Shown piece after piece: positions 20,347 to 44,660 of a stretch of DNA of 64,000 nt. The DNA lies in assembly GCA_963575645.1 (NCBI GenBank), contig OY754470.1, positions 4,720,501 through 4,784,500 of the forward strand, written 5' to 3'. Every line of letters starts with the position of its first letter. Position 1 is the first letter of the stretch. A program made the position numbers and the translations under genes. The notes under the pieces were generated by a model, which ran no database searches, was not told where the DNA came from, and saw only the letters and a list, made by a program, of their open reading frames with translations. Origin of the DNA: Xanthostigma xanthostigma (Eukaryota > Arthropoda > Insecta > Raphidioptera > Raphidiidae).

Positions 20347-20530
20347 AAAATAAAAAATATAGAATAGTTACTTCTTACCACAACAGTTTTATTAGCGGAT
20401 GTACATTTCGGGAGCTATGCTCTCATCTTCAGCAAGCACTAAAGATGAAGATGAGAGCATATCTCCCGAAATGTACATCCGCTAATAAAACTGTTGTGGT
20501 AAGAAGCAACTATTCTTTATTTTTTATTTT
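20347..20530. mobile_element. Near-perfect 184-bp palindrome with hammerhead-like arms
   Basis: Arms of about 80 bp (ATAGTT, TTCTTACCACAACAG, TTTTATTAGCGGATG, ACATTTCGGGAG) face each other across about 12 bases. On the minus strand the left arm reads CTGAAGA (20432-20426), a GAG/CTC-closed hairpin and GAAAT (20409-20405). The right arm reads ATGAAGA (20445-20451) and GAAAT (20468-20472) on the plus strand. This order of motifs recalls hammerhead cores in Penelope-like element terminal repeats. Catalytic competence is not shown. Confidence 0.6.
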
Positions 20531-22116
20531 AAGTATTGTTTGAAAATAAATTTTATTTTATTTAAACTGTTTTGAAGAATTCATTTTTTAATTTACGAGT
20601 AAGCCCAGAAATACAAATTATTATTTTTTTTTTTTTTGGAAAGCAGTTAAATTACGAAATTAATTAAAAATAATTATACATAAATTTAAAAGAAAATATA
20701 ATCTTAAACATTTATGTAAGCAAATGTCTATAATTTTTAAATTTAAATAAAAGTCGTCTTAATAAAAAATAAAAGTCTTTCTAAAATAAAATATCTTTGA
20801 GTCATTATTTTGTTTTAAATGTTTAGCATGTAGGTACAATTTACTTAACGTTTTTTTTTAAATTCGTGCATGTTATTTTAATTTGCTTTTTGATGATAAT
20901 AAAATTCAACAAAAAAATATTTTCAAAGCATCTCAATTGTTACTAGAAAATTCTTCCTCTCTTGCAATAATTAGTAAGGTTGAAAGATTACAAACGTTGC
21001 CTTGTTTCATATTTCATCAATCAGCTTAAACGCCGGAAGGACGTCAGCTGGATGGCGCCGTTCATATTTTAATAAACTTATAATGACAATATCAAGCATG
21101 TCATTTATATTTTACTATGGCTGTTGTAAATCTTTTACCTTAAATAGTATCAATATTCGGTTTTTAATTTCTTTGACATTTGTTAAGTACTTCATTAAAT
21201 CAACGCAATCAATAAACAGTCTATCATCCCCTTACTGCTATCCAACGAAAAGAGGCAACCTCTGTAATCTACTTACCTTGCTTACACTGAAAAAACCAAA
21301 GTAGGTATAAACTAAGTTCGCGTCTGTACATTTAAATATAAAATATAATGACATAAAAATATGTAATTTCGAATCATTAACATAGCTCTAATATTTTTAG
21401 TGACTCTTAAATCGAACAAATTAAATTTCTTCGTGGAACCTTTAATATTCAGAGCGAGAGAGATTGTAGACGCTCGACAATTGAGGTAATTAGTGTACAC
21501 TTTAAGTATTCACTGCGTGTTAGAAAATAAAAAAAAGAAAACAGACACAGCTATGGATTTGAATACAATCGTTTGGGGTCGATTATTATCGAATATATTT
21601 TTTATTTGTAAGCTTTCAAGCAGTTGATTCTTGAAAATCAATTGATCAAATGGCAGATACCGCCTGTATGGCAGTTAAAAGGCAAAGCCAATAAATCCAC
21701 ACGGAGGCACAACAAACACGCGAATCGCGCTCCGCATGTCTGCACGTCTAATTCAATATTTATTTTACACTGGATAATATATAATTTTATTCGTCGACTA
21801 TAAAAGACATCGTCAACTCCGTTGTTCTATCAGAAATCGCTTTAAAACACGACATCCAGTACACCGTAAACTGCAGTATACTGTTTCACGATATTTATTA
21901 GGTGATCACATGTATCTATTAATTTACTATATGAATCATTGCCTATCTACTCAATTTGCGGTGAGTAAACGCAACAAGCGTATCGAAAATATATCTGCGT
22001 CTTTTTTTCGATGTAATTTCCTGATTTCTCCGATGATAGGATTAGTTGATGTATTTGCATTCAATCTAAATAAAGTATCTCGGTTTCAAAAACTTTGTCT
22101 TTTTCTATGACGTTAA
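20531..22116. other. Nothing recognised
   Basis: About 1.6 kb of AT-rich single-copy sequence. The 100-codon open frame at 21002-21304 has no recognisable domain. Confidence 0.4.
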
Positions 22117-22214
22117 CATGGGCGTAACCAGCTTCTGGCCCAGGAGGGGCAAATTAGAAATTTCTTAAGCCGGGTTCCCCGTGTTTGTTTTGCGCTCCTG
22201 GATACGCCAGTGCT
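22117..22214. mobile_element. Possible small hAT-like remnant
   Basis: The left GGGCGTAACCAG and right CTGGATACGCC segments are roughly inverted and resemble hAT-type termini, with a GGCCCAGGAGGGGC run inside. No convincing target duplication. Confidence 0.3.
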
Positions 22215-22394
22215 TACGGCGTAAAGAAAGACAGAAGTATATGTTTACACCCTAATAGTTCGATTACGATTTTATTCCTATGCTCAGTATAGAATAAAAT
22301 TATATGGGTGACCAATAGCTTCAAAATGTTTCTGTATTTATTAAACTGCGCGGTTACTAGAACTCTACTGGGCTCAAATTAGAACAGACAAATT

Positions 22395-22725
22395 TTATGA
22401 GATGGAAAAAGGGCTCCATGAAGAAAAAACATTTCTAGGCCAATTATTTAAACATTTTTTGTTGTTTTCAATGCAGACGGTTTTTCAAAAAAAATATTTA
22501 GTTAACAAAACCTAACATCACTGTTTTAAAAATAAATTTAAACATTTATTTTCTACGTAACTTTCTTTTTTCATTTGTTAAGATGAGACCATAATTTATT
22601 CATATTTTTTAATTGTTATTTAATACTATAAAAAAATTATTTCTTCACAGGCCATTGCGCTCGAGCTGTAACGGCCGCGCGGAACCCTGTTTTCAACGTT
22701 AAATTAAAACTATAAATAATAGAGA
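22395..22725 (+). repeat. Interspersed repeat family D, copy 2
   Basis: Same order of landmarks and same orientation as 7130-7435, including GGAAAAAGGGCTC, ATTATTTAAACATTTTTTG and CTCGAGCT followed by TAACGGCC. Its 3' part retains GTTAAATTAAAACTATAAAT. Confidence 0.65.
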
Positions 22726-22738
22726 TTAGAGTGACCTG

Positions 22739-22753
22739 TGCGAATTATTCGCA
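22739..22753. repeat. 15-bp perfect palindrome
   Basis: TGCGAATTATTCGCA, 7-bp arms around one base. A possible dimer-binding site, or chance. Confidence 0.3.
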
Positions 22754-22858
22754 CTAAATAGGTATAATAATTATCATTTTACAAATTTTTTTTAAAATAT
22801 GATTGCAGGTATTCAATTCGTTTCTAATTTTGCACACTGCTTACAACATTCTTCTTTT

Positions 22859-23155
22859 TGTTGTATTACAATATGAAGCTCAGATGACAGATCGGAGAAA
22901 TATTTTACTAAAATGGTCATATAGAGGCGCAAGTAGCAAAAGCGTTGAGCTAAGCAGTCAGATGGCATCATGCAGCATTGCTGTGACGTTGTTCAGCGTT
23001 GCTCGCTGTTACAAAATTAAAGCCGTCAGATGGCAGTATGCAGTATTGTGTCTGTTGTAATACAATATGAAGGTCAGATGAAAAGATCGAAGTGTTGACG
23101 TTGTTTCAAAATTAAAGGCGTCAGATGGCAGACGTTGTTCAGCGTTGCTGTATTT
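22859..23155 (+). repeat. Partial tandem duplication, period about 194 bp
   Basis: TGTTGTA followed by TTACAATATGAAG (or its one-base variant) occurs at about 22859 and 23053. ACAAAATTAAAG plus GTCAGATGGCAG and GACGTTGTTCAGCGTTGCT are each found twice. The second unit is shortened. The 85-codon open frame across it is a by-product. Confidence 0.6.
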
Positions 23156-23159
23156 TAAT

Positions 23160-25044
23160 TAATTTACAAAAACAAAAGCTATAATAAATTTTTTAGTTGT
23201 CGATGTCAGTAGAGCAAGCAATTATCTGTAAAATGATATATAATTTATGTGGAGAAATTGTGAGGTTTTTTCTAAAAAGAGAGGCAAACATCTTTAACCT
23301 TAGCGTATTAATATATATGATTATAGAGTTCCGGGAGTGGGACTTCATGATTGGAAATTTTCTCCTCTTTAAGAATCTATTTTTCCATTTCTGCTATCGT
23401 TTACCTATACCTAGTTAATTTATAAAATAATATTTTATTATTTTTTTTAATAATGGCAATATTTTGAACAATTTATAATTTAAAAATGATCATTCTTCTA
23501 GAAATGCATTGTTCTACGTGAAATCATTCTAATTAATTTCAGTTTAAACAAAAAGAAGTTTCACTTCAATAAGTTAGTTTATTATTTACCAGTGCAAAAT
23601 CAATTAACCGAATACCAAAACTACCTAAGTATATGATGAATATAAACACTTAATTGCATCATTGCATGATTTAGGTTCGTAATTATGTTAGAGTTGGTAT
23701 TTACTACGTATAACTAACAAACTGGAACACCTGCTTGCATTACTGCAGTTTATACAAACTGTTTCAAAAATACAGCGGGCAATAATTGCACTTAAAGGTA
23801 GATTTTTACCTTAAATTTGCTTGAGTAAAAGTACTACCAAAAACCCAGCATAAGTTCGTTCCAAATTAAATCTTCATTTTTTTTTAATGAAGAACTTAAT
23901 TTTGCTATGTACATCTAAATTCTAATTAATGTTCTAACTGTCACTTTTGCTTTTAGCATGTCGTTTTTGAAAAAAACTTCTTTATCCTTTATTCCGAAAC
24001 GCCCTTTGTCAAATATTTTGAGTTTTGTGGTGAAGTATTGCATTAGGTGAGTTAACGATATTATTTTACACGAGCAATAGCAAAATATCATCATGTATCG
24101 AGTAATATGTATATTTTTTGCACATGTCTCCTATAAAATGGCTGATTTTCACTCCATTATATTTCTGACAGCTGTGTCATCGCTGTATGCGGTCGTATAG
24201 CATTTCATTAGGATTGTTTACAAAAACTGCATCAGTTTTGTGTTGCTTTGCTCTCTGTTTATCTTATGGTATTAAATGGTAACTGAGAGATAGCTTTTGG
24301 AAATTACTGTTGGATTGATTAAATGGCATTAATTTACTAGTTGCGTCTTGGGTCATTTTCTTACAGGCATGAGAAGTGTGCTCTGCAGTCACTGAAATAA
24401 AAAATAGCGTATATTTAGTATTGTGGCCAATCGCTGGAAGGGAGTTCACTTTTAAAATACTAAAAATGGCGATTTGCACCAAGACAAAGGCGAACCGGCC
24501 TCTGTAAAAAAAGTAATTATTTATTGACGGGTTGCTAATCGATAATACTGTGCAGATATATATTATTATTGGCTTCGAATTGCATTAATATTATGCCGTG
24601 CTTGTAATAAAGTAACATAACCTCACATTATTTAATAATAGTCGAACGTATTGCATGATTTGAATCCTGGTACTATTGTTACTGTTCCTTCGAGTACCAA
24701 CTGTTAGAGCATTAAAGGAACTAAACACCTGGCGGTAACAATATACAATAATATAGTGTATGCAACGTAAGTAGATAGAGAATAATATTATATACGTAGA
24801 TGTCGCATTAATTAATTATTTACGCTTGTTGAAAACACGTATTGTTATAGTTCGAATTTATAGCGTCTATCTATTATTATACAGAATGTTTATTAATAAA
24901 ACGATTTTTGTATTTTATAATTACATGTGACTTAAGGTAGTTCACTCGTAAAACGGCTTTTCTTAGGAATTTTATAAAATTGAAGTACCTACATCTAAGG
25001 AATAGGGTTAATTGTTAGTAGTAGTTCTGTTCCAAATAATATGT
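23160..25044. other. Nothing recognised
   Basis: Single-copy AT-rich sequence. Open frames at 23197-23418 and 24264-24482 show no known domain. Confidence 0.4.
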
Positions 25045-25092
25045 TTCAGAAAGTTTATTTTGGTTGAGAAGGAGAAAATAAACTTTCTGAAG
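25045..25092. repeat. Hairpin with 17-bp stem
   Basis: TTCAGAAAGTTTATTTT at 25045 is complemented exactly by AAAATAAACTTTCTGAA shortly after, with a loop of about 14 bases. Confidence 0.6.
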
Positions 25093-27866
25093 AGTACCTT
25101 CACCGACTGTAAAACGAGATACTAACAATCAAAATGTGCATAATTAACATGCTGGAGGTACCTATATCACTTATAAAAGAAAACGAGTTTTCAGAACATC
25201 TCGTAAATGGTTCTTAGTATATTTCTTAAAAATGAATGCATGATAAACTCAAAAATTAAAAATTTTCTGAAAAACATTGAATGTTTTTACTGTTTTCTTA
25301 AAAAAATATAGATGTTTAAAATAAAAACATTTTTATTGGATTTTCAACTGTAATCGTATAGGAGTGCATCTGTATATTCAAGCTTAGATGTGTTGGGTAC
25401 AATCCCTTACAAAAATTCACGGGAATCTTTATATACTTTTTATTACTCATGCCGGAAAAGTGGTATCTTTACGCATGCTGTTACGGCTGAAAAGTAGCTA
25501 TTTTCATTTGCGTGCGGAAACTTTATTTGTCGCACTGAAATTATTGTTTGCCGCACGCAAATTCAGAGAAAAAAACAAAATAATAACGGTGTTAGTGTCA
25601 GCGAAACAAACTGCAGATTTGAGGTTAAAATTTTCGATTATGGACTTTTATTCTTACAATTTTAACTAAATTTTCAACTTTTTAATGATTTAATTTTAAT
25701 TTTTAGGTATTACTTCTAATTTCTTTTTTTAATTCGTAATAAAATTTTAATTTAATTTAATTCGTAATAAAAAATAGTATTGCACAATATACTGTTGTCT
25801 ACGTCTGTCGCGAGTGAATAATACTTTCTTCTGTATGGAATAATATTTGATATACTTAGTACTCACAAAATTCGCACTGTCTTCATAATATTAGATTTTC
25901 ACACCAAAACCAACCTAATAGTAACACGATTATATTAACGTGCAGCTACCAAAGATAATAACCTGCATTGATTTATTGATAAATTGTAATTCGGTTCACA
26001 GATGTCGTTAAAATATATTTCGAGATAAATAGTTCATTTTATATTGCATAACATAGGACGTCTTTAGACATGCAAACACAAGTACTTACCTATTGATGAA
26101 TTCTACTGAATCATAATATAGTCAGTTGATTACGGTTTGCATCAAAAGTATTTTAATAATTGTGTGGTCAATGTATTAATAAATAACTTAGTGAAAAATA
26201 ATTAGTTTTCTTCTAATTTACTGGTTTTTCCGTGTAATAATAATCAATTTAGTGTCAGTGGGATTCGTGAAAAATTAAAAACATTTGTTTGTTCTCAAGA
26301 ATAATTAATTAATTTTGTACTTTTACATCATCATCTCTGTACTAGTGTATTCATTACTGTCATTATTCAACAGAGCTACAAATGCGGTAAGTCCTTTTTG
26401 TTATTATTAGCGTCATTGTATTATTTTTTTGTATTTTCAACGCTATCCGCAATGTGCATAGAGTTAAGTGATTCTTGGTTCTTCATTTAGCGTTTACTTA
26501 AACCCTGCAGCTTTATAAATAGCGTCGGCAGAGCTGTAACGAATTTTAGGCGAAAGGAAAAGGGGTAATGTAGGTATTGCCTCTCAGATCACTATAAAAG
26601 TTTCAAGTGAGTAATACAAAATAGAAATAAAAATTGCTTAACCTCATTGTTTGAAGGCATTTTAAATACGTGTTCAAGTGAACTTTTTTACTTGTGCTGA
26701 CCCTCAGCCTTAAGTTTTTGATTTTTGGAATCAATCTCTATATGAATATGTTTTATGAAAATCTTGTAAATGACATATTTGATTGAATTTCAAGGAAAGT
26801 TTTCTTTGTTGCATTTATAATATTCGTTTTTCTGAACTAGAATAACAGAAACATCTGTGTAGTTTCATTATTAATTTAAATGTTATTATTATATGTTTTA
26901 TTTAGTATGAATCAGTTCTATGTAGACTAACAATGAAACAATAGCACCAATTACAGTAAACCTACATAGGTATATTTATATAAAATCTGTTGAATATGTT
27001 TAACTGGGACATTTAGTAAATGGTTCGTTTAACATGTTTAGTTTGTTAAATTTAAACAAAACAAAAATTTAAAACATAAGCAGTATAGATTTTGTTTTTT
27101 ATGCGTTTCTGTTTTGTTTTATTCACAGAACATAAAATTTAACTGCGTGGTCATTTTAAATTGAAATTTGGATTATAAATGTGCAAATAATAAGAGAAAT
27201 GCGGTACTGTTTGAAATCTCAAACATCCAGACCTTAAACATAATTTCAGTCATTAATTAATTAAACAACTGTATTATAATATTAATCTATATAATTGTCC
27301 TAAAATCGTTATTGCTTATTTAAAGTTTTCAGTTTCACCTGAAGAGTGTTTTTAAGTAGGTCTGACCTTGATCCGGCATTTTGTTTCAAAATGGTAGTCA
27401 TTTGAATGTTGATAAATTCATAACATCTATTCTAGGCACCGTAATAGAAGGAATGTATCCACCAAATTTCATGTTTCAAAGTTTCTGCAAGACCAACTTT
27501 CTCAAAACTAATTTGCAAAGGTCTAAACAAAATAAATAATTTCAGAACCTATATCAGGCGCTCTTGGACACCCGGTTTACGTTGCGTCTTATGTGGAACG
27601 ACTTTCTGTAATTCATTAATGATTTCCATATCGACATAGGCTAGTAAAATGAAGATGATTTGACCCACAAAATTACTAAAGGGTGCACATTTGAGGGAAC
27701 ATTTATATATAAGTATGACACACAATCTGTCAAAATTTCACCTTCCTGCGATGACGGGAACTTATTAAAAACATTTAAAAAGTGTTAAAAAACTGTGTTT
27801 CATCAGTTTTTGCTTGTTTCTTGTCAAAATTCAATATTGTAACTATGGAAAATTTCTAATTTTCGA
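25093..27866. other. Nothing recognised apart from one small hairpin
   Basis: About 2.8 kb of AT-rich single-copy sequence. A 12-bp perfect inverted pair (ATTTGCGTGCGG at 25506 and its complement at 25551) lies inside the 93-codon open frame at 25388-25669. That frame has no known motif and is not called a gene. This could be intronic or intergenic DNA. Confidence 0.4.
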
Positions 27867-30040: not shown

Positions 30041-30057
30041 GTTGGAAACTTTTTTTT

Positions 30058-31191: not shown

Positions 31192-31590
31192 CTAGCGGTC
31201 CGTCCCGGTTTCACCCGGGTGCGATAGATATAGTTCTGCAAAATGTATTTCGTTTGCGGCCCGGCGTCTGAACTAATAGCTTTGAGCAATTCTACCGGAT
31301 TTGCTTTGAGTGAATTCTATTAGATGTCTCTACTTGGTACTAAAACAGTTTTTTGGTTTGCTTCTGAACTAATAGCTTTGAGTAAATTCAATGAGATGTC
31401 GCGACATATTACTAAAACAGTTTATTTTTACAAAACACCGTTTTGTACAAAATATTTGTAATAAAAACTATCCTATGACGAAAGTTGGTCCAAACAAGAG
31501 ACATTTACAAAATTTCATTAAAATCGGCTCAGTCGTTTCGGAGATAAGCGCGGACGAACATCGTGACAAGAAATTTTTATATAGATATTC
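31192..31590 (+). mobile_element. Repeat family B, copy 2
   Basis: Starts CTAGCGGTCCGTCCCGG and ACCCGGGTGCGATAGATAT, has duplicated GAACTAATAGCTTTGAG blocks, TATCCTATGACG, AAAATTTCATTAAAATCGG and ends CGTGACAAGAAATTTTT. Best preserved copy of the family. The 78-codon open frame at 31391-31627 lies within it and is not a gene. Confidence 0.7.
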
Positions 31591-31620
31591 ACAAAATAAA
31601 ATTAGACACCTTGGTATTAT

Positions 31621-31841
31621 GGTATGATAAAATTATACGGGATACAAGACTAAAATATTAAAACAATTTTTATTCGCTAGAACATTATTTATTTGTCGAC
31701 GTTTCGGCAAAATTTTATGTCTTCTTCAGGACCTGAAGAAGGAAAGAAATTTTGCCTAAACTTCGACCAATAAATAATGTTCTAGTGAATAAAAATTGTT
31801 TTAATATTTTAGCCTTGTATCCCGTATAATTTTATCATATA
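31621..31841. mobile_element. 221-bp palindrome with hammerhead-like arms
   Basis: Arms of about 105 bp (ATGATAAAATTATACGGGAT, ATATTAAAAC, ACATTATTTATTTG) meet at TTCAGGACCTGAAG. The left arm on the minus strand reads CTGAAGA (31729-31723), then AGACATAAAATTTTGCC, then GAAAC (31705-31701). The right arm on the plus strand reads CTGAAGA (31733-31739) but TAAAC in place of GAAAC (31757-31761). This matches the motif order seen in Penelope-like element termini. Not proven catalytic. Confidence 0.6.
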
Positions 31842-31859: not shown

Positions 31860-33143
31860 TTTCAGCTCTTGAAACGTTTGCCACTCCTGGTATAGAAAAT
31901 ATTCACACGTGTGAAGATTATCCTCTAGCTAAAAATGTTGTTTTATTGTATAAAACAAATATACGTGGACGAAGCTGGCATTCAAGCCTTTTGTAGTTTG
32001 ATCAGACGATTGTCTGACCAGTGAACCAATCTACTCCCAAAAATGTAAACAAGGGTACGAGCACGTAGTATGTTTTCAACCTTTTTTACGGTTACTGGAA
32101 CATGTAAACAATTAACTTGTATAGACATCGGTTCCTGGAAAAATTATTAAGCAGTCTTTCAATTGCTCACCCCGAAATAGTTTGTCATAATATTTATTTC
32201 CTTAAATTCTAAGATCTTTCTGTTACTCAATCGAGAGTTACGTCTAAGGCCTCTTGTTAACGACAACGTATAACGGCCCGATTTTTATGCGACGTACCGA
32301 CGCGCAGTGTTCAATAGGTTAGTGTGGGTGTTTTTTAACGCGACGGGCATGTAACCGTTGCAACAAAACTCAACGGGTACTCGCAAGTCGCCCCTCGGCG
32401 CGACGGCGGTCGGTCCGATGCAGTAGACCACGTCATTTCATAGAAGTCTGTTGACGACGACAAATGTGCGCGCACGTTTTTACCTATACATACCTACCTA
32501 CTTTATTCTACTCATTGTGAATATGGAGTTTAAAATTGATATTAATTAGCCTTGTTCATAATAGGCCAGTGTTGGGACAAGACTAGAAAATTACAAAAAT
32601 AAACAATCAAGACATAACGTACTTTAACTTCTTAGCCCGAATTAGATTTTTTAGAAAATAATGCATTTTCGACACCCAAGTGATCATTCCAAATATTAGT
32701 AATATTATAGCTTCTTCTTCCGAGAGGAATACGAGCAATGACCGGTCACTCTGTATTTATCCGATAGACAGCCCTCGGAAGGTGCAAAGTATTTACGAGA
32801 ATAAACTACTCGCGTTATGTGAATGCATCTTTCAGAAATTGTTAAATAATGAGTTAAGGAGAGTATGAATATCTTGAAAACTTTCACACGGCGGAGATCT
32901 TAATTTTAGGTTAAAGCAGATTTCAACACGGTTCGACGATGCTGTAACAACAGAACATTATTCAAAACGAATACATAAGTTCAAAAGTTGTAGGTACGTC
33001 TTTCACCCGAAGATGTACACTCTGTTACTTTGACAGCATGTCAAACTTTCATTCAATCGACAAAATGCCGACATACCTGCTTGAAAAAAACTCTGTTCAA
33101 TTTTTACCATTTTTTTTAGCAATACTAAAACTAACTGACTCAT
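31860..33143. other. Spacer with a CpG-rich block at 32230-32480
   Basis: 32230-32480 is strikingly CpG-rich for this window (GCGACGTACCGACGCGCAG, CTCGGCGCGACGGCGGTCGG), single-copy and without an open frame. It could be a promoter or enhancer of a host gene outside the window. The remainder holds nothing recognisable. Confidence 0.35.
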
Positions 33144-33469
33144 CTTCTTGGTTTTCGGGATTGTATGTCGTGGTCCATTGGTACTACTACTAGTCACGCA
33201 TATACAGAGAGGCCACAGAAATACACAAACACACAAATAATTTCAACCGCAAAGATGAAGGTTTGAATCTAAGTAAAACCTGGACACCAGCACTGTGCAA
33301 TACCAACCCACTGAATGGAACGACCAATCACAGAAGAGCATACTACGACCGAGTAGAGAGCACTGCGCCCGCTACCACATCGCCTTTGATAATGTCTACC
33401 GCAGTTGTAGACGGAACGTCAAGTAAAAATACCAATGGACCACGGTATACAAGCTCGGAAACCAAGAAG
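33144..33469. mobile_element. TIR unit with best hammerhead-like stem, Penelope-like
   Basis: The ends are inverted over about 40 bp: CTTCTTGGTTTTCGGGA and GTCGTGGTCCATTGGTA on the left, TACCAATGGACCACGG and GGAAACCAAGAAG on the right. At 33386-33417 the plus strand reads TTGATAA, then a perfect 6-bp stem GTCTAC/GTAGAC with a 7-base loop, then GGAACGTC. This is a hammerhead-like core with changes at conserved positions. The related unit at 37740-37984 supports a family. The 127-codon open frame at 33263-33646 crosses it and is not convincing as a gene. Confidence 0.55.
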
Positions 33470-34236
33470 ATTTGGATCAACACTGGCCGTGAAAGCCTAC
33501 ACGCTTGGATAAAACTTTCACTCTGTTATAGATATGAATTAATTATATTAAAAAATCAGTCTGTTGCTAATTATATATTTTCGATAAAGAGGTGGCTGTT
33601 GCGTCAGAAGATTTTTGCAGCTCTGCGAAATATTAAATTAATCTAATTGGCTATTATACCTACAATGCATAATATGATTTTGTATGCAAAAGGAATTTTA
33701 TTATCCTCTTGGTTCATCCATCCAATTTAATTATCAGTCATTAGTGATAAAAGCAAAAAATTCTTGGAAAGACGTGAATGACACAACCGTAGTCATTATT
33801 ATTCTCTATAGTAGGAATGTTTAGACTTTAATCCCACTGCATAGAAGGTTTGTTCTTTGCATCATTAATTCGGTACATCATTAGTACGGACTGAAAGAGA
33901 AGCAAAGCCTGTTTCTAGAGCTCGAAGTTTTCACTGCGTACCTGTAATAAGGAATTGAATTATGTGAAAAGTAAACATATAAAAAATGTCATGTAAAAGT
34001 CTGCAAAAAAAAAGATTTTCCAGGGATGTTTTTATTCTAATTAAAACAACAGGAAAAAACGATGTATCCCGTTTACTGTGCTTTGTTATTGAAGGTGACT
34101 TTTGAGAACAAAACTTTTTTTTTAAATCATAAAAAAACTTTATTCATGGTGATTCGAAAACTTAACTATGTTTTTTTTTAAGTAGATATGCTTCCTTGGT
34201 TTTAGATTTCAATAGTGTATAAATTAATTAATTAAT
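33470..34236. other. Nothing recognised
   Basis: AT-rich spacer. Confidence 0.4.
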
Positions 34237-34952: not shown

Positions 34953-34978
34953 AATAATAATAAATAATAATAATAAAT
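34953..34978. repeat. (AAT)n tail of the non-LTR copy
   Basis: AATAATAATAAATAATAATA lies past the stop of the minus-strand reverse transcriptase relic and forms its 3' tail. Confidence 0.65.
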
Positions 34979-35069
34979 TTATTTTATCAAGTCGGGATAC
35001 AAAATGTATCCATTTGACATGTCAAGTACATTAAAAATTAAAATACATATAGGTACATTATATAAAATA

Positions 35070-35425: not shown

Positions 35426-35439
35426 GGTTGAATGTTAGT

Positions 35440-35758: not shown

Positions 35759-36304
35759 AATATTGCACATACCGCTAAACTAGCGGTATGTGCTTTATTA
35801 TCGCTTTGTGCGTCAGAGCTGACTTTCGTTCATATAAGAAGTTATATCTAAGTTAATTTCACACGAAATCCATTCAAATTGAAGCTTTTTGAAAAGAGGA
35901 GATTCTAATCTATAAAACAGAACCATTTTTAAATCAATTCGAGTTCATAAATACTATTAAAATTGTAATTGAAAATCACAAACAGCAGTTGTCGGTTGGT
36001 CTGTACGTATGTACGTATGTACGTATGTACGTATGTACGTACGTCACGACTCTACAGATCGCAATTTTGGTCGGATTGCCTTGGGTTATATTTTATTCAC
36101 TTTGTTTACTATCAGACCAGAACCCTATTTAAATTCACTAAAATGTGTTCAGTAGTTTAATTTTTATAAACAGTTTTATTTTATTATTTTTGACAGCTAA
36201 TTAATAGTTTAAAAAAACAATATAATAATTGCTGTGCAAATATAGTGTAATCCATAAAACAAGTGCTACACTTCTATACCGTGATAACACCACTACACGT
36301 ATTA

Positions 36305-36376
36305 GGCCGCCGTGGCGTAATGGTTATGCCGTTGGATCCCCAAGGGCAAGGTCCTGGGTTCGATTCCTTACGAAAT
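36305..36376 (+). other. tRNA-like Pol III promoter block in repeat F
   Basis: A box TGGCGTAATGG and B box GGTTCGATTCC fit the Pol III consensus, and the intervening GTTGGATCCCCAAGG resembles an anticodon arm. Acceptor pairing is poor, so this is a tRNA-derived promoter rather than a tRNA gene. It lies about 550 bp inside the repeat, unlike the 5' position of typical SINE heads. Confidence 0.7.
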
Positions 36377-36441
36377 CATTGATTTTTTTCTGTTTTTTTT
36401 TCTTTTTATTTTGTTTTATTTTATTCCACTTGATATTAATT

Positions 36442-36515
36442 ATATATTATATATGTATATATATATATTATTATTATATATTATATATGTATATATATAT
36501 ATTATATATGTATAG
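36442..36515. repeat. (TA)n-rich tract
   Basis: Interrupted TATATG/TATATA runs, largely missing from the second copy of repeat F, showing rapid length change. Confidence 0.8.
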
Positions 36516-36692
36516 TTCTTAATTTTTTTTATTTTTGCAAACTTAAAAAAAATATTTTTTCAATTTTTAATTATTTATTTCTTTAAATTTTTAAATCTTT
36601 TTAAATTTATTAAAAATATTTTTTAATTGTTATTTTTTTATCATACAGTGGAAAACTTGCGGGATGTGCACTTTTGGTTTTGCCAACTATTT

Positions 36693-37393
36693 TTTTTTTG
36701 TTAACGGTATAAATGTAAGTGAAGAGATGATTTGGAACTTTGAGTTTTGTAAAATATAAAACGGTGTAGTATAAGCAAAGGCTTTGTGCTTGACACACTC
36801 AGATCAGAGATTATCACTGTTCAGACGCCAAGCTGTGTGATATAAAGCTTTGGTGAAGCTCCATGTTTTGCTGGCAGTTGCTGTAGTAGTTCTGTTACAT
36901 CAATTTCACTACTTGAAAGCTGGATTTGACTCTTTGATTCGAGAACTTGTGATATAATAGAAGGAAATAGTATATATATTTGAACCATCCAACCGAACTT
37001 AACTGAATCTTGTCATACTGTATATTATTTCTGGAATATTTCCAACTATATATTATAAAATCATATGCAGTAACAAAATACCGACTTTCATTCAAAGATA
37101 GTTTTAGGAATTTAAAAAACATTTCTCAGAAGAATAAAATTTTTTCATGCGTGGTTAACCATGTAAATATAGAGAACTAAAACCATCGTGTTTTTTAACA
37201 CTTTTTTTAGCTTGCTTCGTATATTTCTTTATTTCTTTGTTTCAAATCTTGGAACAGCTTTTTTAACTATTTCCCGTTATCCGATTAAGCTTAAATTTTG
37301 CATAGGTATGTTTCGATGACAATATAATATTATAATAATGACTGACTAACCGTTCCGGCTTTCGTCCGGATGTAAATCAAACTATAAAACTTG
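36693..37393. other. Nothing recognised
   Basis: AT-rich spacer. Open frames at 36610-37122 carry no known motif. Confidence 0.4.
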
Positions 37394-37729
37394 AAAATAA
37401 AAATAGGTAAAAAAACTTTTAAGTTAAACGCTTTTATTGTACAATCGATAATGTACTTAAAACTAGACAATAAATATGAGTCACCATAGGGGGGTTTTGA
37501 ACTAAAATGAAATCGTGGGGGCATTTAGGAGAAAACTTTCATTTGTTTGAGATTAGAAATCATATTTAGCTTTATTCGACTGTCTTGTTCGACCATAATG
37601 TAACTATAAATGCCCTCCACGATTTTATTTTAGTTTATTTAAAGACCCCTATAGTGCCTCATATTTATTTTATAGTTTTTAGTACAATATCGATTGTACA
37701 ATAAAAGCGTTTTTCTTAATTTTTATTTT
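37394..37729. mobile_element. Long foldback element, 336 bp
   Basis: Arms of about 130 bp: AACGCTTTTATTGTACAATC, AATAAATATGAGTCACCATA and TCGTGGGGGCATTTA on the left are answered by TAAATGCCCTCCACGA, TAGTGCCTCATATTTATT and GATTGTACAATAAAAGCG on the right, with a loop of about 80 bases. No coding capacity. Confidence 0.75.
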
Positions 37730-37739
37730 GTTCTAAATC

Positions 37740-37984
37740 TTTTGGTTCCCGCGTGTGTAGGCCGTGGTCCATTGGCATTTCAACCTTACGTTTCGTCTAC
37801 AATTGCTGTAGTCATTATCAAAGAACACTAACACGCTGTGCATAAAAAAGGGAGAACACCAGCCATCGACACACCTGCAAGACGCCAGCTGTCACAGTCG
37901 CCTTTGATAATGTTTACCGCAGTTGTAGATAAACATCAGGCAGAAATGCCAATGGACCACGACGTATGAGCCTAGAAACCAAAA
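37740..37984. mobile_element. TIR unit with hammerhead-like arms, Penelope-like
   Basis: The left end TTTGGTTCCC and CGTGGTCCATTGGCATTT is answered by AAATGCCAATGGACCACG and GAAACCAAAA. The minus strand of the left arm reads TTGATAA, a CTAC/GTAG stem, and GAAAC (37794-37790). The right arm on the plus strand reads TTGATAA (37914-37920) and TAAAC (37930-37934). Related to 33144-33469. Confidence 0.55.
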
Positions 37985-38518
37985 AAATTTGTTTTCAATT
38001 CTGTTTTTGGCGTTATATGCAACTGTTGTCTTATTCGAAAATACATGTTGGCACATCTTTTGAGAGCACAGCAGATTTTTTTTTAATTACAAACTGTTTT
38101 CATGAGGATTTACGGTAAATAATGAGTAAACTAAAAATTGTCCCACGCATTTGTTCACTGGGGTTTTTTTACATAACGACCAAATGGTATTTGAGGGACA
38201 CTATCAACTGCAACCTGGAGCGTAAACCAAAGGGACTTGTTTGTTGTCATTTCGTAAGAGACATAACAACAAGGTATAACGACGGATTAGCAATGTAACC
38301 AGCTCAAACGTTTGCATGCGTTAGTTCTATGTCAGTTTAAATAGAAGATTAACTATACATACGCAATCCACACTCTCGATTATATCGGAACATCTCTCTC
38401 TTTATTATTGATCAAGGAGATCGGTAGACAAAGATGATCTACTAAAAAAACTCATTTACAGGAATACGAATATACTTTGGCTTTCAATTTTTACACCGAG
38501 AGATGGCGTTACTATGCT
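37985..38518. other. Nothing recognised
   Basis: AT-rich spacer. Confidence 0.4.
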
Positions 38519-39300
38519 CATTTTACCATTCCAACCCACTAGCGGGGAACGGTGCTAGTTAAGGTCATAATTCTTTTTGACGTGATAACGTCTTATAAAT
38601 TGATGAATCACCAATCTTATAAATTGATAAAACACCGGCTGCATGTACGAAAAAGTGTAACGTTCCTAACGGTCGTAACGTTCCTAACGTTCGTAACGCC
38701 TGACCCTGTGCGTGCTTTTTGCTAATTTCTCGCTCAATTTAAATCAGATCGGTTTGAAACCAGTCTTAAACGAAAGAGGAGAACATTTTACATAGATTTC
38801 GTATAACAGAATTTGCCTAAACAGTTTTTTTATACAAATTTATATAGAAAAATAGCTGTATAAATGCAATGTTGTCTAATGCATGGCGCGACGCGGTCGG
38901 TCGTCTTTGTTTGCCGTACATGGAAATTAGAAGATAACGTATGTCTTGTCTTAACATGAAAACGGCTGCATTTCTAATGTTTAATTCAATTTTTTGACAT
39001 TAGTATTTTGTGAAATGCAACGCCTTCTAAGTTAAGTATTGGAATAACTAATTATTATTAGAACATAATACTTTGTAAGTTGCAAACGTCACTTTTGACA
39101 TTTCTTATCATTCCGACACCAAGGATAAGCGGATTGAAACCAAATTTTGGGAGGTTTAGGTTATGTATTACGGAATACGTTATCACGTAAAACTATCGTC
39201 CGTAAACCGACTTTACAGACAACCAATTTTTTTTCAAAATTTTTATGTTTTGAGATTCCCCGAATCCAAAAAAAAATATATTTTTGGAAAAACTATCTGT
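38519..39300. mobile_element. Family A copy interrupted by a TIR element (mosaic)
   Basis: 38519-38576 carries the family A terminus (TACCATTCCAACCCACTAG). 39227-39300 carries its next segment (TTTTGAGATTCCCCGAATCC). Between them lies the TIR element G. A short family A piece (GGATTGAAACCAAATTTTGG, about 39131) appears inside G out of order, so more than one event is needed. Confidence 0.6.
38579..39226 (+). mobile_element. TIR element G, copy 1
   Basis: Left GACGTGATAACGTC and, near the right end, ACGTTATCACGT are inverted. The unit ends with CGTAAACCGACTTTACAGAC and AACCAAT. Near the left end are stacked TAACGTTCCTAACG-type repeats and GCCTGACCCTGTGCGTGC. The inverted copy is at 62674-63252. 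Non-coding. Confidence 0.65.
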
Positions 39301-39874
39301 TTTTCTGTTACTATGTTTACTGGCGTAAATTGGCATACTTCAAGTAAAATGCTCTTCAAATGAACTGGTTCTGAATAATCAGCTTAACAAGATTTTTGAA
39401 ATTATTTTTTTATTATCGCAAACAGTACTTCTGGCGCTTAGAACGAATTACTGTTACGTTTCCAAGTTGAATCGGGACACTAATTTACATTTTGATATAA
39501 AAATTGTGTGCGAATTTTTGTTCTGAATGAAATTTCCATTTACACGAAGTCCCAGAACTGTACAGCGATTATAAATGTGTTTTAAATAACTGTGTGCATA
39601 TTTTAAATTATTATATTGTAGCCATATTTTCATACACAATATATAACACTTACGGTTTACATTCAAATATACCGACTGTACCCGAAATAAGAAATGAATC
39701 GAAAATAGGTATGGTTCCAAGCCTTACAATTGGTGCCGAAAGTAGGCACTTTCGATCGAGGTATGAAGAAAACTTGGTTTCGAATTTGAAACTTAAGCTT
39801 TGGTAGTTGATAACTTTAAGAAAAATTTTAAAGAACAGAAAATTTGAAAAAATAGAATAGAGATAAAACTGTTT
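39301..39874. other. Nothing recognised
   Basis: AT-rich spacer. The overlapping open frames at 39454-39806 have no known domain. Confidence 0.4.
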
Positions 39875-39950
39875 TTAGTGTATTTGTCGTAAAGCGTCGG
39901 TCGGATGGCGGGTCCTAGGAGTTGGACTAAAATTTCCCGACGTTTTAGAA
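39875..39950 (+). repeat. Repeat fragment, partner of 45355-45460
   Basis: TGTATTTGTCGTAAAGCGTC, GGTCGGATGGCGGG and CTAGGA are the inverted counterpart of the segment at 45355-45460. Confidence 0.6.
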
Positions 39951-40026
39951 TAGAATAGATTTATTTCTAAACAGCCAAATAGGCAAGAAATTGTCAAAAT
40001 ATGTTTCAAGTTTCAATCATGACAAA

Positions 40027-40191
40027 TTAATTAAAATATTCCTCAATAGAGTAAAAACACTGCTGAATGAGAAATTTTTTTAACGCAATTTTAAATAAGC
40101 TAATGTTTAGATCTTTTATTTCGGCAGGTAAATTATTGAAAATGTTCGTTCTGTACAATTTGGCATCACTTTCAAAAAATCCAGCTTACTA
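40027..40191 (-). pseudogene. C-terminal relic of a non-LTR reverse transcriptase, interrupted
   Basis: About 52 codons in one minus-strand frame: GFFESDAKLYRTNIFNNLP, an AEIKDLNISLFKIALKKF segment, then LIQQCFYSIEEYFN and stop at 40027-40029. The AKLYxxNxFNNLPxEI and QQCFYSIEEY blocks are typical of CR1/Jockey-like ORF2 ends and resemble the relic at 1275. The 3' untranslated part ends in AGAATAGAATAG repeats near 39949. The frame stops exactly where the TA-flanked element at 40192 begins, so the older copy was split by that insertion. The upstream continuation beyond 40561 could not be recognised with confidence. Confidence 0.75.
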
Positions 40192-40558
40192 CCGTATTTT
40201 ACTGACTATAAGACGCTACGGCCTATAAGACGGACCTTAATTTTTAGCATTTTTTTTTTTAAATAACATAATATCATTTTTATTATTAGATTGTAAAACC
40301 AGACTAAAAAAACAATTCTTAGTTGATGAAATCGGACGGATCATTAAAACCCCTCTAAAAGTCGTCATCTGAGCTTTCTTCTTCTTCTGACCAGATAGAG
40401 ATAGATTTCCCGCGGCATCGATGGCCATTTTTAAGACTGGCGGGAAATTTAAATCAAACTCTGGACATTTTTAAATTAAATACGACTATAAACCACCCCT
40501 GTATTTCGGAGGCATTTTTTTGAAAAAAAAGTGTGTCTTTATAATCCGTAAAATACGC
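40192..40558 (-). mobile_element. pogo-like DNA element, 367 bp, nested
   Basis: Left CCGTATTTTACTGACTATAA and right GTAAAATACGC (complement GCGTATTTTAC) form the TIR, flanked on both sides by TA (40190-40191 and 40559-40560). CGTATTTTACGGACTATAAG-like ends with TA duplications fit the Tc1/mariner-pogo group. It contains the transposase C-terminal relic below and has inserted into the reverse transcriptase copy at 40027. Confidence 0.7.
40360..40440 (-). pseudogene. C-terminal tail of a pogo-like transposase
   Basis: Minus-strand frames give MAIDAAGNLSLSG and, after a one-base shift, SEEEESSDDDF followed by a stop (about 40360). An acidic C-terminus with a DAAGN segment just before it is what pogo-type transposases often show. 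Only about 25 codons remain and the frame is broken, so this is a relic. Family assignment rests mainly on the surrounding TIR and TA duplication. Confidence 0.5.
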
Positions 40559-40560
40559 TA

Positions 40561-40984
40561 TATTTTAGTTATTAGTGGACGTGTAATGGTGGAGATGCAA
40601 GTCTATATGGTAGAAGAGCGGGTATGCAGAATAAACAGACTTAATGCCTATAAAGTGCGTTTTACATGTATTAATTGCCTATAAAAATGTGTTTTTCAAT
40701 ATTCTTTCTTTGCAAATATCAGTTTGAGCACGTATGTCCTTTAAACAGCGGAGTGTTTAAGAAGCACCCGGTATATACGAACGATTCTGTTGTGCATTTG
40801 TACCTCATATATTTTCATTAAAATACAATTAATCGAAAGGACCACTAGATATGCTGTTCTACATATTGTGTACAATACATTTTGTGCCATAATACTGCAC
40901 GTGAATAGGTGGTCTGGCCAAAAAAACTTAATTTTTGTTTTCTGAAGTCAAACATCATATTAGCGCGTGCATGATGCTCTCCCT
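40561..40984. other. Possible remainder of the split non-LTR copy
   Basis: If the element at 40192 split a reverse transcriptase copy, its upstream part should lie here on the minus strand. Only weak, frame-broken likeness was seen. Confidence 0.25.
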
Positions 40985-41615
40985 TCTTTTAGTTTGGAAA
41001 CTACGGCCATTCGAAGTCTATGTATGATTTTCTGAAAACTATAAACGCAAATAACTACTAAACCAAAAGACATACAGACGTTTGTTTGTGCTCATTGAAT
41101 TCAGCGTATTTTTTTCTATAAGCATAATGATTTTGTTAAAGTTCCGAAAGATATCGGTTTTCATCAAAAACCGCATTTTTTTTAAAGGGGTATGCCTTGA
41201 AAAAATCGCAAATATCGAATTGTTTAATATACTTTTGAAATTGAGAATACTTACAGAAAAAATAACGCTGAATTCAATGAGCGTAAGCAAACGTCTGTAT
41301 CTCTTTTAGTTTGGAAACTACGGCCATTCAGAGGTTTTGTATGATTTTCTGAAAACTATTAACGCAAATAACTTCTAAACAAAAAGATATACAGACGTTT
41401 CTATGTGCTCATTGGATTCAGCGTGTTTTTTTCTATGCATGATGATTTTGCCAAAGTTCCGAAAGATATCGGTTTTCATAAAAAATAGGATTTTTTTAAG
41501 GGGTAAGCCTTAAAAAAATCGCAAAAATCAAATTCTTTAATAATACATTTGCAATTGATAATACTTACGGAAATAAATCCAATATGGCGGATGATAACCG
41601 CGAATTACATCCGCA
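40985..41615 (+). repeat. Direct duplication of a 317-bp unit containing a palindrome
   Basis: AGTTTGGAAACTACGGCCAT starts at 40991 and again at 41308. Both units continue with TGTATGATTTTCTGAAAACT, ATACAGACGTTT, CTCATTG(A/G)ATTCAGCG, AAAGATATCGGTTTTCAT and a GGGGTA(T/A)GCCTT segment. The first unit is itself an inverted repeat: 41068-41130 is answered by 41240-41304. That is why similar peptides appear on both strands at 41039-41290 and 41082-41309. Neither is a gene. Confidence 0.75.
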
Positions 41616-42182
41616 GAGAACGATATAGCTATATGCTACTGTTTTTTGACCACCCAACATTTTGAGTACGTAAGTACTATATAACTTTGGAAGCAGCTTA
41701 ATTAAATTGCAGAATTTATGGACATGTAATATTATGCAAGTGCTTAGTACTCGTTACTCGCGGAAGTAATGCGAGTAAATCCCGTAAAAGATAACTTTGA
41801 GTTGCCAGTCCTGTATAAATAATTAGAAAATAAATTAGGTGTTTGAAATGCAATTCTACTAGTGAATTGTGCAAGAGTCCCCCGTGAATAAGTTTAGATT
41901 GTTTTATTTCGAAATGTATAAGTAAGAGATTTGTTATGCAGACGGAAAAAGTAAACCAAAAAAAAAAAGTACAATATCATAACAATAATTTTCTTCGTCA
42001 GTTTCTCTGCAACAGTGTTACCAATTTACATAAAGAAAATGTTAATTTTCTGACACTCGCTTGCACTAACAATTTCCTTTATTCAAGTTTTAATAATAAT
42101 ATTAGATTTACTGAACAGAGACAGTTGGAAAACAGCTTTTTTGTTGAGGACTTATTTAACCAGTTTTAGACAATTTTTAGAC
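41616..42182. other. Nothing recognised
   Basis: AT-rich spacer. The 77-codon open frame at 41936-42169 has no known motif. Confidence 0.4.
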
Positions 42183-42200
42183 AATTTTTTTGGAAATTAA

Positions 42201-42613
42201 TAAACGTCCGTTTCTCGACTTTTATGTCATAACAGACGCCATTCGCACCATTACTATTTTCATTCTACCACACTTCCCGTTATTTTCTACAATTTTTAAT
42301 TTTCAACTAAATTAATAGCAATGGGCGAATGAAGTAATTTTTAGGAAATTAGGATAAGGTAGGCACATTTTGAGCATAGGAGTTTGACAGGTAATCGGCC
42401 ATGGCCTTGAATAAGGAACCGTCTCGATATTTATCTGGAATTATTGAGGGAAACCATGGAAAACCTCAACAAGATGGCCGGTACAGGAATTACCGTTTCT
42501 CGGCGAGAGGCAGTTGGAAAAAGTCCTAGTCACATCTGCCTCCGCCGGGATTCGAACCCGGTACCTCACGAATGCGAGTCTAGAGCTCTCACCGCTACGC
42601 CACCCCGCTCGGT
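42201..42613 (-). mobile_element. tRNA-derived SINE (family S), copy 1, exact TSD
   Basis: A 413-bp element on the minus strand. The tRNA-derived head at 42540-42612 has A box TGGCGTAGCGG and B box GGTTCGAATCC. The body contains CCATGGCCGATTACCTG and AATGGTGCGAATGGCGTC, and the tail ends at ACGGACGTTTATTA. The 18-bp direct repeats AATTTTTTTGGAAATTAA at 42183-42200 and 42614-42631 are identical, the hallmark of target-primed reverse transcription. Copy 2 is at 56814-57223. Transcribed by Pol III in principle, and moved by a partner non-LTR polymerase. The exact duplication suggests a fairly recent insertion. Confidence 0.88.
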
Positions 42614-42631
42614 AATTTTTTTGGAAATTAA

Positions 42632-43135
42632 CTGTCTGATTTTTTAAAGTAAAAAAACATCAATTTAGAAATAATTAGCTTCTCAATACATTGGGAAGTA
42701 ATTGTAAAGGGTTCGAAAGTCGAAATAAAAAATTTTAACTCAAAGTCACTACATTATTTTTAAACTGTTTTTGAAAAGATCTCTCTGGTTTTACATCTTT
42801 TTAAAATATTCATCTTAAGAATTTGTAGCTCGTTTTATACTTTTTACATCGACTTTTTTATCTTTTGAATCAAAATGCAATGTGTTATCAGATATTCCAA
42901 AAATAAATTGATATGTTTCTATCATAAAATACATATTTAATATTTAAAAGGTTTTTAATGTTAATATTGCTGTTATGAAACCCACTTTAGTATTTTTTTT
43001 TATTTGATTTTTTTATGATTTATGTTGTACACACACTTGATAATGTTATAAATACACAGTGTCCAATTATGTTTAAAGTTGCGTTTGAAACCTTTTGAAA
43101 TAAAGAGAAATATTTAAAATAGACCTTCAGGCTGG
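42632..43135. other. Nothing recognised
   Basis: AT-rich spacer. Confidence 0.4.
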
Positions 43136-43143
43136 ACATAGAC

Positions 43144-43626
43144 CAGGGGTCGGCAACCTTTTGAGACGGAAGAGCCAAAATTGACAATTTATAACATTTT
43201 CCAGTTTTTAAAGAGCCAATAAAAATTTTCGTTTCAATATTTTAGTATTTGAAGGGTACACGGGAAGAAGGCGATTTGTCAAAAAATGGAAATTGTGCAG
43301 GAGAACATTTTGAAGGGTTTAAGATCGTGCCATTTACTTGCTGATGCATTTCTTTCAACGCTTATAACTTTTCACCTAGCGTATTCTTGTCTAAAATGAA
43401 TACACCAACAGAAAGGTACGACTTTTGGCTACAAGATGGCATAAAAAATTAATTTCGAATTTTTACTGACAAATCGCCTTCTTCCCGTGTACCCTTCATT
43501 TGGATTTAAAAAAAAACGACTCAAACGTGGATCGAATTTTTAGGGCTATAATAAAATAATTAATTTTGGCGTATGGAACTGGAGAGCCGCAACTTAACAT
43601 CGCAAGCCGCAGGTTGCCAACCCCTG
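43144..43626. mobile_element. hAT-type MITE with TSD
   Basis: Left end CAGGGGTCGGCAACCTTTTG and right end CAGGTTGCCAACCCCTG are inverted repeats typical of hAT elements. Flanks ACATAGAC (43136-43143) and ACATAGGC (43627-43634) agree at 7 of 8 positions. AAGAGCC and GAGAGCC motifs occur just inside the two ends. No coding capacity. Interrupted by the element at 43251-43497. Confidence 0.85.
43251..43497. mobile_element. 247-bp element nested in the hAT MITE, perfect 31-bp TIR
   Basis: GAAGGGTACACGGGAAGAAG continues to GCGATTTGTCA at 43281 and is answered without mismatch by 43467-43497. ATTT flanks both sides (43247-43250, 43498-43501), a possible 4-bp duplication. Perfect ends suggest it is younger than its host. 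Superfamily unknown. Confidence 0.75.
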
Positions 43627-43634
43627 ACATAGGC

Positions 43635-44197
43635 TATAGATTATCGCGTTAAAATCAAAGCGCTTTTCGTGGCGACCAATTTTGCAACGTAAGTCGACGA
43701 AAAAACGGTGGAAATCTACAAATTTGGGCAAAACCGAACCAGACCGGTAGCATTATATATTTTTCGAATAGTCGTTAAAAATGGTACACTTGTCTATCGT
43801 CAGTTGTTTTTGAACACGATGTACAGTATTATTGTTGACATGAGCGTAGCAAACAAAAATGCATGATATAGATTATATTATTGCTCTTGAATATTCATAT
43901 TTACAGCGAGGTCTGCTATTCTTCTACTCCGCTTCCGTTAAGTGATATTAAAAATGTCAACTTGAATAAAAATGATTTGAAATTACATTCAACAGAATAA
44001 TAAAAAGTAGCGCAAGCAAGCAATAACAGCCTGCAGAAATGCAGAAATATCAAAGTGGATCTATGCTAGCTTGTAGTATGACTATATTACATTATTGTAT
44101 ATTCTGTCTGCCGGCAGAATCTGGTTAGCTATCATTGGCGTACATAGTGCACTGCATATTTAATCATTAAAATTCAATAAAGAAAGGACGCAGTACA
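43635..44197. other. Nothing recognised
   Basis: AT-rich spacer. Confidence 0.4.
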
Positions 44198-44660
44198 TAT
44201 TGTAACAAAACTGTTCTTGTTCGCGGTGGAAAATATTTATTTACAATAGTGAAACGTTAACAAAACAGTCAAACACACAAACAAAAGTACTTCTCTATAA
44301 CGTAACAGAAAAAAACAACAATTCCAACTAATAAAATAAAAGAATAAGTAATAATGAATACAAAGTCACTATTTATGTACACAAAAAATTTACAACACAT
44401 AAACACACCAAAGTTTATTATTTATGTTAAACAATTTATTTCGCGCACTGTTTATTTACACGTACATTTATCTATTTATCTCATCAGTTACCTCAGTACT
44501 GTTCATGGTACTGACTGTCAATTTATGTCACAACTATTTGTTGGCAATTGCACAATTTTCCATCGCAACTTGCATTGAGGCCCTGAGGATGAAAATATAT
44601 TTTTTGAAACGTTGGCCACAAGCGATACTCTGGTAAAGTTTATTTTTCAATTGTTCCTCA
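44198..44660 (+). mobile_element. Repeat family P, copy 1, with hammerhead-like motif
   Basis: Starts TATTGTAACAAAACTGTTCT and shares about 250 bp with 52404-52650 (CAATAGTGAAACGTTAAC, ACAAAGTCACTAT). Near the right end 44583-44610 reads CTGAGGA, a self-complementary AAAATATATTTT and GAAAC followed by GTTGGCC. That is a hammerhead-like order and a sequence context common near Penelope-like element ends. The 70-74-codon open frames inside are not genes. Confidence 0.5.

Follow-up and report, generated by a model that had tools for sequence, protein, structure and literature searches.

Hammerhead-bearing palindromes in the genome of Xanthostigma xanthostigma as probable two-ended insertions of Penelope-like elements

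The closest described counterparts of the sequences considered here are two Penelope-like elements (PLEs), Poseidon of Anolis (PMC11167929) and Penelope of Adineta vaga (PMC3846280). In the portions of these two papers that were available to us, they combine reverse transcriptase (RT) and GIY-YIG domains in one open reading frame (ORF), form tandem pseudo-long terminal repeats (pLTRs), carry a hammerhead ribozyme (HHR) motif at the junction of the pLTR and the ORF, and show short target site duplications (TSDs) and an inverted pLTR. The mode of PLE insertion is an open question, and palindromic copies have earlier been attributed to antisense self-priming. The same set of features is encountered in Xanthostigma xanthostigma (genome of 623 Mb in 28 contigs), of which we analysed a stretch of 64,000 nt, referred to below as the window (C7:4720501-4784500, contig OY754470.1; all coordinates below are counted from its first letter). 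Five places of the window, named here by their positions 20347, 31621, 33144, 37740 and 44577, are remnants of Penelope-type elements, comprising four short palindromes and one lone piece. They differ from Poseidon and Penelope in that the units are small palindromes of one element end, 56 of the 60 typed ones bearing the long tail on one arm and not on the other, and in that many of the hammerheads of this genome, which contains more than 21,000 exact motif matches in its 623 Mb, have U3-A8 in place of C3-G8 as the core pair 3-8. The kind of element is known, and so are PLE hammerheads, inverted pLTRs and the optional tail; the tail rule and the mass occurrence of U3-A8 go beyond the published accounts that we found. 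In the literature surveyed we found no mention of a near-strict tail rule, nor of U3-A8 on this scale in PLEs, as far as the accessible parts of these sources extend, and U3-A8 may be partly known from older work on PLE hammerheads.

Downstream of the hammerhead core the arms terminate either at a short end or at a long end located some 30–40 nt farther downstream, and in the sum over families, which mixes more than one way of tail typing, the 60 typed palindromes comprise the 56 with one long and one short tail, four with two short tails and none with two long ones. In the 20347 family, 40 loci (the window unit and 39 others) yielded 32 palindromes, 25 of them typed at both ends; 23 are mixed, two are short/short and none is long/long (P 8e-6 against independence). 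The 31621 family shows the same with 12 mixed palindromes and one short/short out of 13 (P 0.0016). In its census L047 is the window unit itself, L054 was omitted as the same locus as L052, six of the 19 loci are one-ended, and for L057 and L058, in which loose alignment and tail score disagree, the tail score was used. All ten typed pairs of the U3-A8 families are mixed (15 -/+ pairs, 14 of them examined, with L143, L148, L150 and L157 left untyped), and so are all five two-ended loci of the autonomous relative described below, for which L035/L036 and L038/L041 were treated as one locus each and loci showing a single end within the stretch did not enter the count. The family characterised by a GGCC stem I gave, by eye, five mixed palindromes out of the five typed among six, L162 being untyped. 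Within the window, units 20347, 31621 and 33144 are mixed and unit 37740 is short/short. The polarity of the arms is equally regular: among the first 100 U3/A8 sites listed, 15 of the 19 adjacent pairs at a distance of up to 1 kb are -/+, four are -/- and none is +/-, and the arms point outward in all 13 two-ended loci of the 31621 family.

Target duplications of at least 9 nt were found in 10 of the 25 two-ended units of the 20347 family, compared with 1.0% of shuffled flank pairs. In the 17 of the 40 loci of this family in which both landmarks were found, the centres are all different, so the palindromes formed one by one and do not descend from a single palindromic DNA master. This result bears directly on the idea that the units are foldback elements or DNA elements resembling miniature inverted-repeat transposable elements (MITEs), or else retrozyme-like repeats, with a hammerhead-like motif that is incidental. 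Such an origin would suit short, non-coding, palindromic units of high copy number, and retrozyme-like repeats with type I hammerheads are described from insects and other invertebrates in the accessible part of PMC7229834. A foldback or MITE element would, however, be expected to leave copies of one palindromic master, and it was rejected on the 17 differing centres; the ends are moreover asymmetric, and for one unit the same terminal sequence is present in elements with RVT_1 and GIY-YIG domains. The animal retrozyme, with its canonical type I HHR in tandem repeats of ~300 bp and its lack of an RT partner, was dropped in view of the inverted tail-out pairs, the two-ended tails and the RT-bearing relative. 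We consider this whole group of explanations to be very improbable.

The tail-out polarity, the combination of one long with one short tail, the TSDs in part of the units and the variable centres are direct observations. The interpretation that we hold to be likely is that the units are short insertions of GIY-YIG-type PLEs, in which the palindromes result from priming on two strands with two start sites. According to this scheme, the endonuclease would cut the target on both strands, and the 3' ends set free would each prime copying of the sense PLE RNA, one of them starting at a distal site (which would produce the long tail) and the other at a proximal site ~30–40 nt upstream (which would produce the short one). 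The two cDNAs would then extend toward the RNA 5' end and would be joined head-to-head between short target duplications. The order of these steps may be as given here, and one protein–RNA dimer may use both of the start sites. With the purified Anolis PLE protein, as described in the available part of PMC11167929, both strands are cut and extended, and copying of the RNA begins at two internal positions next to each other.

Palindromes could also be generated if an antisense PLE transcript primes its own copying, the RNA 3' end folding back and the hairpin product being integrated, as has been proposed for the rotifer Penelope elements (PMC3846280, in the part accessible to us). Self-priming accounts for the head-to-head polarity, and some of the centres can be read as small hairpins (L001, L099). 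In addition, identity in the 31621 family is a little higher between the two arms of a unit (94.7%) than between arms taken from different units (92.9%), a difference reached in 87 of 5,000 draws. This point is unfavourable to two-strand priming, although sister RNAs of a single source could account for the likeness just as self-priming could. A folded single template should, however, yield equal 3' ends, and this is contradicted by the excess of mixed palindromes and by the absence of long/long ones; the arms are unequal at many centres, and the related Anolis protein has two start sites on the sense RNA (same partly available source, PMC11167929). Because the arm ends differ and the centres are not mutual copies, two primed strands of sense RNA fit the data better, and we regard self-priming as unlikely. 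If two-strand priming is correct, two-ended integration with one start site for each end would explain why the tail is "optional" and why the palindromes are head-to-head, and the two-tail rule would make the genome a record of the reaction, predicting one site per target strand.

In the 20347 family, 15 of 64 5' ends lie at -13 and 37 of 64 between -19 and -9, and the TTAGTT at this pile-up may resemble an arthropod initiator. The stop ~13 nt upstream of the core in many copies of this family may correspond to the RNA 5' end. A common RNA 5' end for all families was considered and dropped, as the ends cluster in the 20347 family only and are scattered in the 31621 family. Another candidate regularity, that truncated arms are mostly the long-tail ones, was dropped as well (6/34 vs 3/35, Fisher P 0.31). 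At L100, a member of the 20347 family, the second arm breaks off close to a T-run, well upstream of where the tail normally lies, and an 11-nt flank duplication is visible by eye; a third start site is possible at this locus.

The Penelope origin of the hammerhead motif, suggested in an earlier note made on this DNA from the letters alone, was supported by the rest of the genome. In a census of GIY-YIG sequences, 150 of 521 candidates were scored, giving at least 37 matches, and 30 loci were examined. In 25 of these, GIY-YIG is followed downstream by the motif on its own strand, 22 being recognised by a pattern grammar and L013, L014 and L019 by a model named R1, of which L009, L011, L015 and L016 are members that were also searched with it. 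Among the other five loci, L010 has the motif on the opposite strand, and L012, L017, L024 and L028 have none according to the grammar and R1. The 30 loci are not independent, since 18 of them constitute one family and some share an element, and they represent about eight independent families at most. L040, a locus of the big family, contains one ORF of 804 aa with both RVT_1 (E 3.1e-11) and GIY-YIG (E 1.2e-5), in the order HHR and tail, ORF, HHR and tail on one strand, which is the tandem pLTR arrangement. Over 123 aligned letters, 115 are identical between the end of this element and the left arm of unit 20347 (93%, with four gap letters), and this unit has an autonomous relative; the window units themselves hold no RT/GIY-YIG ORF. 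Four characters of an endonuclease-bearing (EN+) PLE were found: RT and GIY-YIG in one ORF (in the relative of 20347), tandem pLTRs, TSDs and the one-tailed inverted pLTR. An RT and GIY-YIG partner was obtained for one of the units. For 31621, 33144/37740 and 44577 the 30 GIY-YIG loci showed none, although no search aimed at such partners was made, and this tells against the PLE reading of these units; their putative PLE identity rests on the shared motif, the tails and the style of insertion. The several non-autonomous lineages invoked in the earlier note are not needed, as the units resemble short two-ended insertions of PLE RNA, one of them with an autonomous relative. At L005, copies of a short unit stand head-to-tail behind an inverted one, with the long tail on each, as in tandem PLE arrays.

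In the window, the previously described order of CUGANGA (or UUGANAA), a hairpin and GAAACGU is present at all five places, and it is the order of the minimal HHR of PLEs. A model (R2) built from 22 HHRs of the same genome, which belong to other families without clear relationship to the window units, was applied to the whole window, and ranks 1–5 of its 31 matches at E ≤ 10 fall on four of the five units. Three of these five matches are convincing individually; ranks 4 and 5 (31727 and 33380) are weak alone and rest on their families. The earlier model R1 (23 members), which included a relative of unit 31621 (L131, 99 of 115 aligned letters), gave the identical five top places in the same order. 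Unit 20347, which has GAAAUGUA instead of GAAACGU, was not matched by R2 in this search. A strict grammar (core, stem II ≥4, AxxU-H) gave three matches in the window, with stem I ≥3 in one only (44583), compared with a mean of 0.43 matches, none of them with stem I ≥3, in 30 random sequences of the same dinucleotide make-up. With so few strict matches, most of the window copies are to be considered decayed, and the case is made by the families genome-wide.

Unit 20347 is bordered by an 11-nt repeat common to both flanks, the left TSD copy (TTTTAAGTATT) being at 20306–20316 and the right one at 20527–20537, where, the junction being ambiguous, it shares letters with the end of the arm. The left arm (20316–20443, minus strand) comprises the PLE 5' end, the HHR-type motif and the long tail and, by alignment to a natural copy, spans positions -11 to +117 counted from the C of CUGA. 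The right arm (20446–20530, plus strand; +1 to +86 in the alignment) has a core without C3, stem II, GAAAUGUA and the short tail. The inverted pair itself is 20347–20431/20446–20530 (85 nt, 96%). Unit 31621 (31590–31839, defined by inverted arms and tail typing) is a tail-out palindrome with the long tail on the left, to ~31590 as judged by eye, and the short one on the right; its inverted pair is 31623–31730/31732–31839 (108 nt, 92%). The left arm carries a PLE-type motif with C3-G8 at 31692–31735 on the minus strand (R2 39.4 bits, E 3.5e-8), and the right arm a decayed motif with mutated GAAACGU at 31727–31770 on the plus strand (16.8 bits, E 0.085). Unit 33144 (33140–33514, boundaries by eye) is a tail-out pair with a short left and a long right tail (tail scores 9/39 and 35/39) and a U3-A8 variant motif, UUGAUAA with one change in GAAA, at 33380–33426 on the plus strand (R2 15.7 bits, E 0.17). 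Unit 37740 (37735–37990, boundaries by eye) is a tail-out pair with two short tails (10/39 on each side); a U3-A8 variant motif lies in the left arm at 37781–37827 on the minus strand (R2 22.3 bits, E 0.0024), and a fuzzy match to a decayed U3-A8 motif in the right arm at 37901–37936 on the plus strand. The motif had been placed in the inverted arms of four units, and inverted, tail-out arms are indeed present in all four, but several arms lack it in intact form: the core of 33144 is found in the right arm only, the right arm of 20347 is without C3, and GAAACGU is mutated in the right arm of 37740. The single-arm piece at 44577–44619 (plus strand) has a PLE-type motif with a GGCC/GGCC stem I (R2 35.0 bits, E 6e-7) and matches the strict grammar. 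It is a member of the GGCC family, in which L130 and L136 are closely related to it, and its long tail, which resembles that of L159, appears by eye comparison with this locus to reach ~44710.

The structure of the motif was assessed on 34 distinct HHRs kept from 51 sources, duplicates and those with fewer than 3 pairs in stem II having been dropped. They are laid out as stem I 5' strand, core, one base, stem II, GAAACGU or GAAAUGU, H, and stem I 3' strand; the core is CUGANGA in 21 and UUGANAA in 13, stem II opens with G-C in 33, and the triplet is GUU in 20, GUC in 10 and GUA in 4. The elements of the hammerhead core, C3UGANG8A (or its U3-A8 form), G12A13A14, A15.1/U16.1 and H17, are thereby all represented, with an additional base behind A9. 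Stem I, which had previously been left unconfirmed by eye, covaries across the HHR families of the genome: 111 of 136 pairs are formed in this set, compared with 62.8 (sd 4.8, max 80) when the strands are shuffled between families. In the alignment of the 22 HHRs, 78% of the stem I cells and 99% of the stem II cells are paired, the pair 3-8 and the first (outer) pair of stem II being fixed by the search patterns and so providing no evidence, and the covariation score is 0.843 against 0.239 in shuffled alignments (0 of 500) and at most 0.187 in slid ones. The data suggest that the RNA carries a minimal type-I-like hammerhead motif, with the self-complementary ACGU (or AUGU) replacing stem III, and the covariation of stem I together with the link to RVT_1 and GIY-YIG for one unit argues for a hammerhead motif of PLE type. 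Small PLE hammerhead variants and their cleavage as dimers are reportedly the subject of papers by Lunse, Weinberg and Breaker (2017) and by Cervera and de la Pena (2014), to judge by the titles. If the candidate hammerhead cuts, dimerisation or the PLE protein would probably be involved. Minimal PLE hammerhead forms without helix III appear in the accessible part of a review (PMC6155905), and the motifs described here are similar to them in the association with PLEs and in the absence of this helix.

An unbiased test of the core pair 3-8 came from four genome-wide pattern counts that had the same spacer and tail, the reversed patterns serving as controls. Exact matches numbered 16,277 for C3/G8 (control 7) and 5,016 for U3/A8 (control 31), and the broken combinations C3/A8 and U3/G8 gave 485 (control 9) and 781 (control 7), so that the switch from C-G to U-A has an odds ratio of ~215, with the reservation, unfavourable to our reading, that the pattern counts are of copies and not of events. 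Inspection by eye of the first 100 listed of each single change showed mostly one-letter variants of C3/G8 families and, in a few cases, of U3/A8 families. Stem I and stem II sequences of their own distinguish the U3/A8 sites, which include L011, ~550 nt downstream of GIY-YIG; units 33144 and 37740 thus carry TTGATAA as a feature of their family, and decay is not its source. The change of C3-G8 to U3-A8 as a covarying pair has been reported for several natural hammerheads (PMC3088659, in the part available), whereas the present genome alone has about 5,000 such sites, spread over many motif families. The presence of thousands of natural double-variant sites, with single variants being rare, constitutes comparative support for the 3-8 base pair, and the U3-A8 families are a ready test set for PLE ribozyme function. 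The more general proposition, that PLE integration is normally two-ended with one start site per strand and that U3-A8 has taken the place of C3-G8 in a large share of the hammerheads of this genome without loss of function, is one for which we see equal grounds to accept and to doubt.

The arms of the 20347 family extend across the predicted cut, so the RNA that was copied had been uncut at that place. A transcript over unit 31621 (31660–31802) folds into one long hairpin (-78.3 kcal/mol, z -19.4); with such self-folding of the palindrome transcript, the ribozyme probably stays silent within the inserted copies. These copies may feed small-RNA pathways, and cutting may serve the release of unit RNAs from tandem transcripts. 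The units could also be PLE insertions in which the motif has been kept not for RNA cleavage but for the context of the start codon, for protein binding or for the choice of the RT start site, and this we find possible though doubtful. In many families the core runs into ATG (CUGANG-AUG, UUGAUA-AUG), and in Anolis, as reported in the available part of PMC11167929, C3 and G8 precede the start of the PLE ORF, which begins at the start of stem II, the RNA remains uncut without protein, and cutting is dispensable for insertion in vitro. All 49 grammar matches have an additional base behind A9, which departs from the textbook core and likewise favours a role other than cleavage. The 3-8 core pair, on the other hand, switches as a pair, as the hammerhead fold predicts, and in several families AAG replaces ATG at this place.

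Besides the points already mentioned, several observations speak against the interpretation of the units as two-ended PLE insertions with a hammerhead. Four typed palindromes, including window unit 37740, are short/short, and in some typed U3-A8 pairs (L141) the "short" arm ends before the usual short end. No 9-nt target duplication is present in 15 of the 25 units of the 20347 family, and the in vitro experiments with the Anolis protein revealed no strand difference in start site (PMC11167929, in the part accessible). As for the ribozyme, stem III is absent with only ACGU/AUGU in its place, and two of the five covariation measures fall within the shuffles (both-side changes 338/500, further pair types 202/500). 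Judged by energy, the isolated motif 44577 folds as a hammerhead and 31692 does not, but the fold energies carry no information for 31692 (z 0.35) or 37781 (z 0.55). The Rfam models detected no hammerhead in the whole window at the gathering level (tRNA only), nor at E ≤ 10 in units 20347 and 44577, the only two scanned in this permissive way. By the terms of the earlier note such an outcome would point to refutation, but the same models also missed L016, a positive control with the motif ~630 nt downstream of GIY-YIG, and the scan is for this reason uninformative for the window units.

Next to the 44577 piece lies a repeat, family P (44198–44541), that had been regarded as a further carrier of the motif. 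This assignment was not sustained: with a query of 463 nt, 40 copies were scored out of 4,946 first-look candidates, and all 39 of those besides the window copy stop at query position 353 or before, short of the HHR at 380–422. Family P is therefore a separate repeat without the motif that adjoins the PLE piece. The same neighbourhood is seen by eye in L163, where P stands on the minus strand after the tail of a GGCC-family piece, and P may be a frequent neighbour or target of this PLE, or part of a longer element. In L162, of the same family, both arms run into identical flanking sequence, as if the unit were located inside a larger inverted duplication. Elsewhere in the window there are a tRNA-Gly (GCC) gene at 13906–13976 on the minus strand (66.7 bits) and a tandem array of four copies of a ~156-bp unit at 12567–13194, with 63–86% identity to the reference copy. 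Two pairs of dispersed repeats were also noted, one at 35759–36698 and 46548–47429 (83–98% identical) and the other at 8304–8684 and 58005–58385 (90–91% identical).

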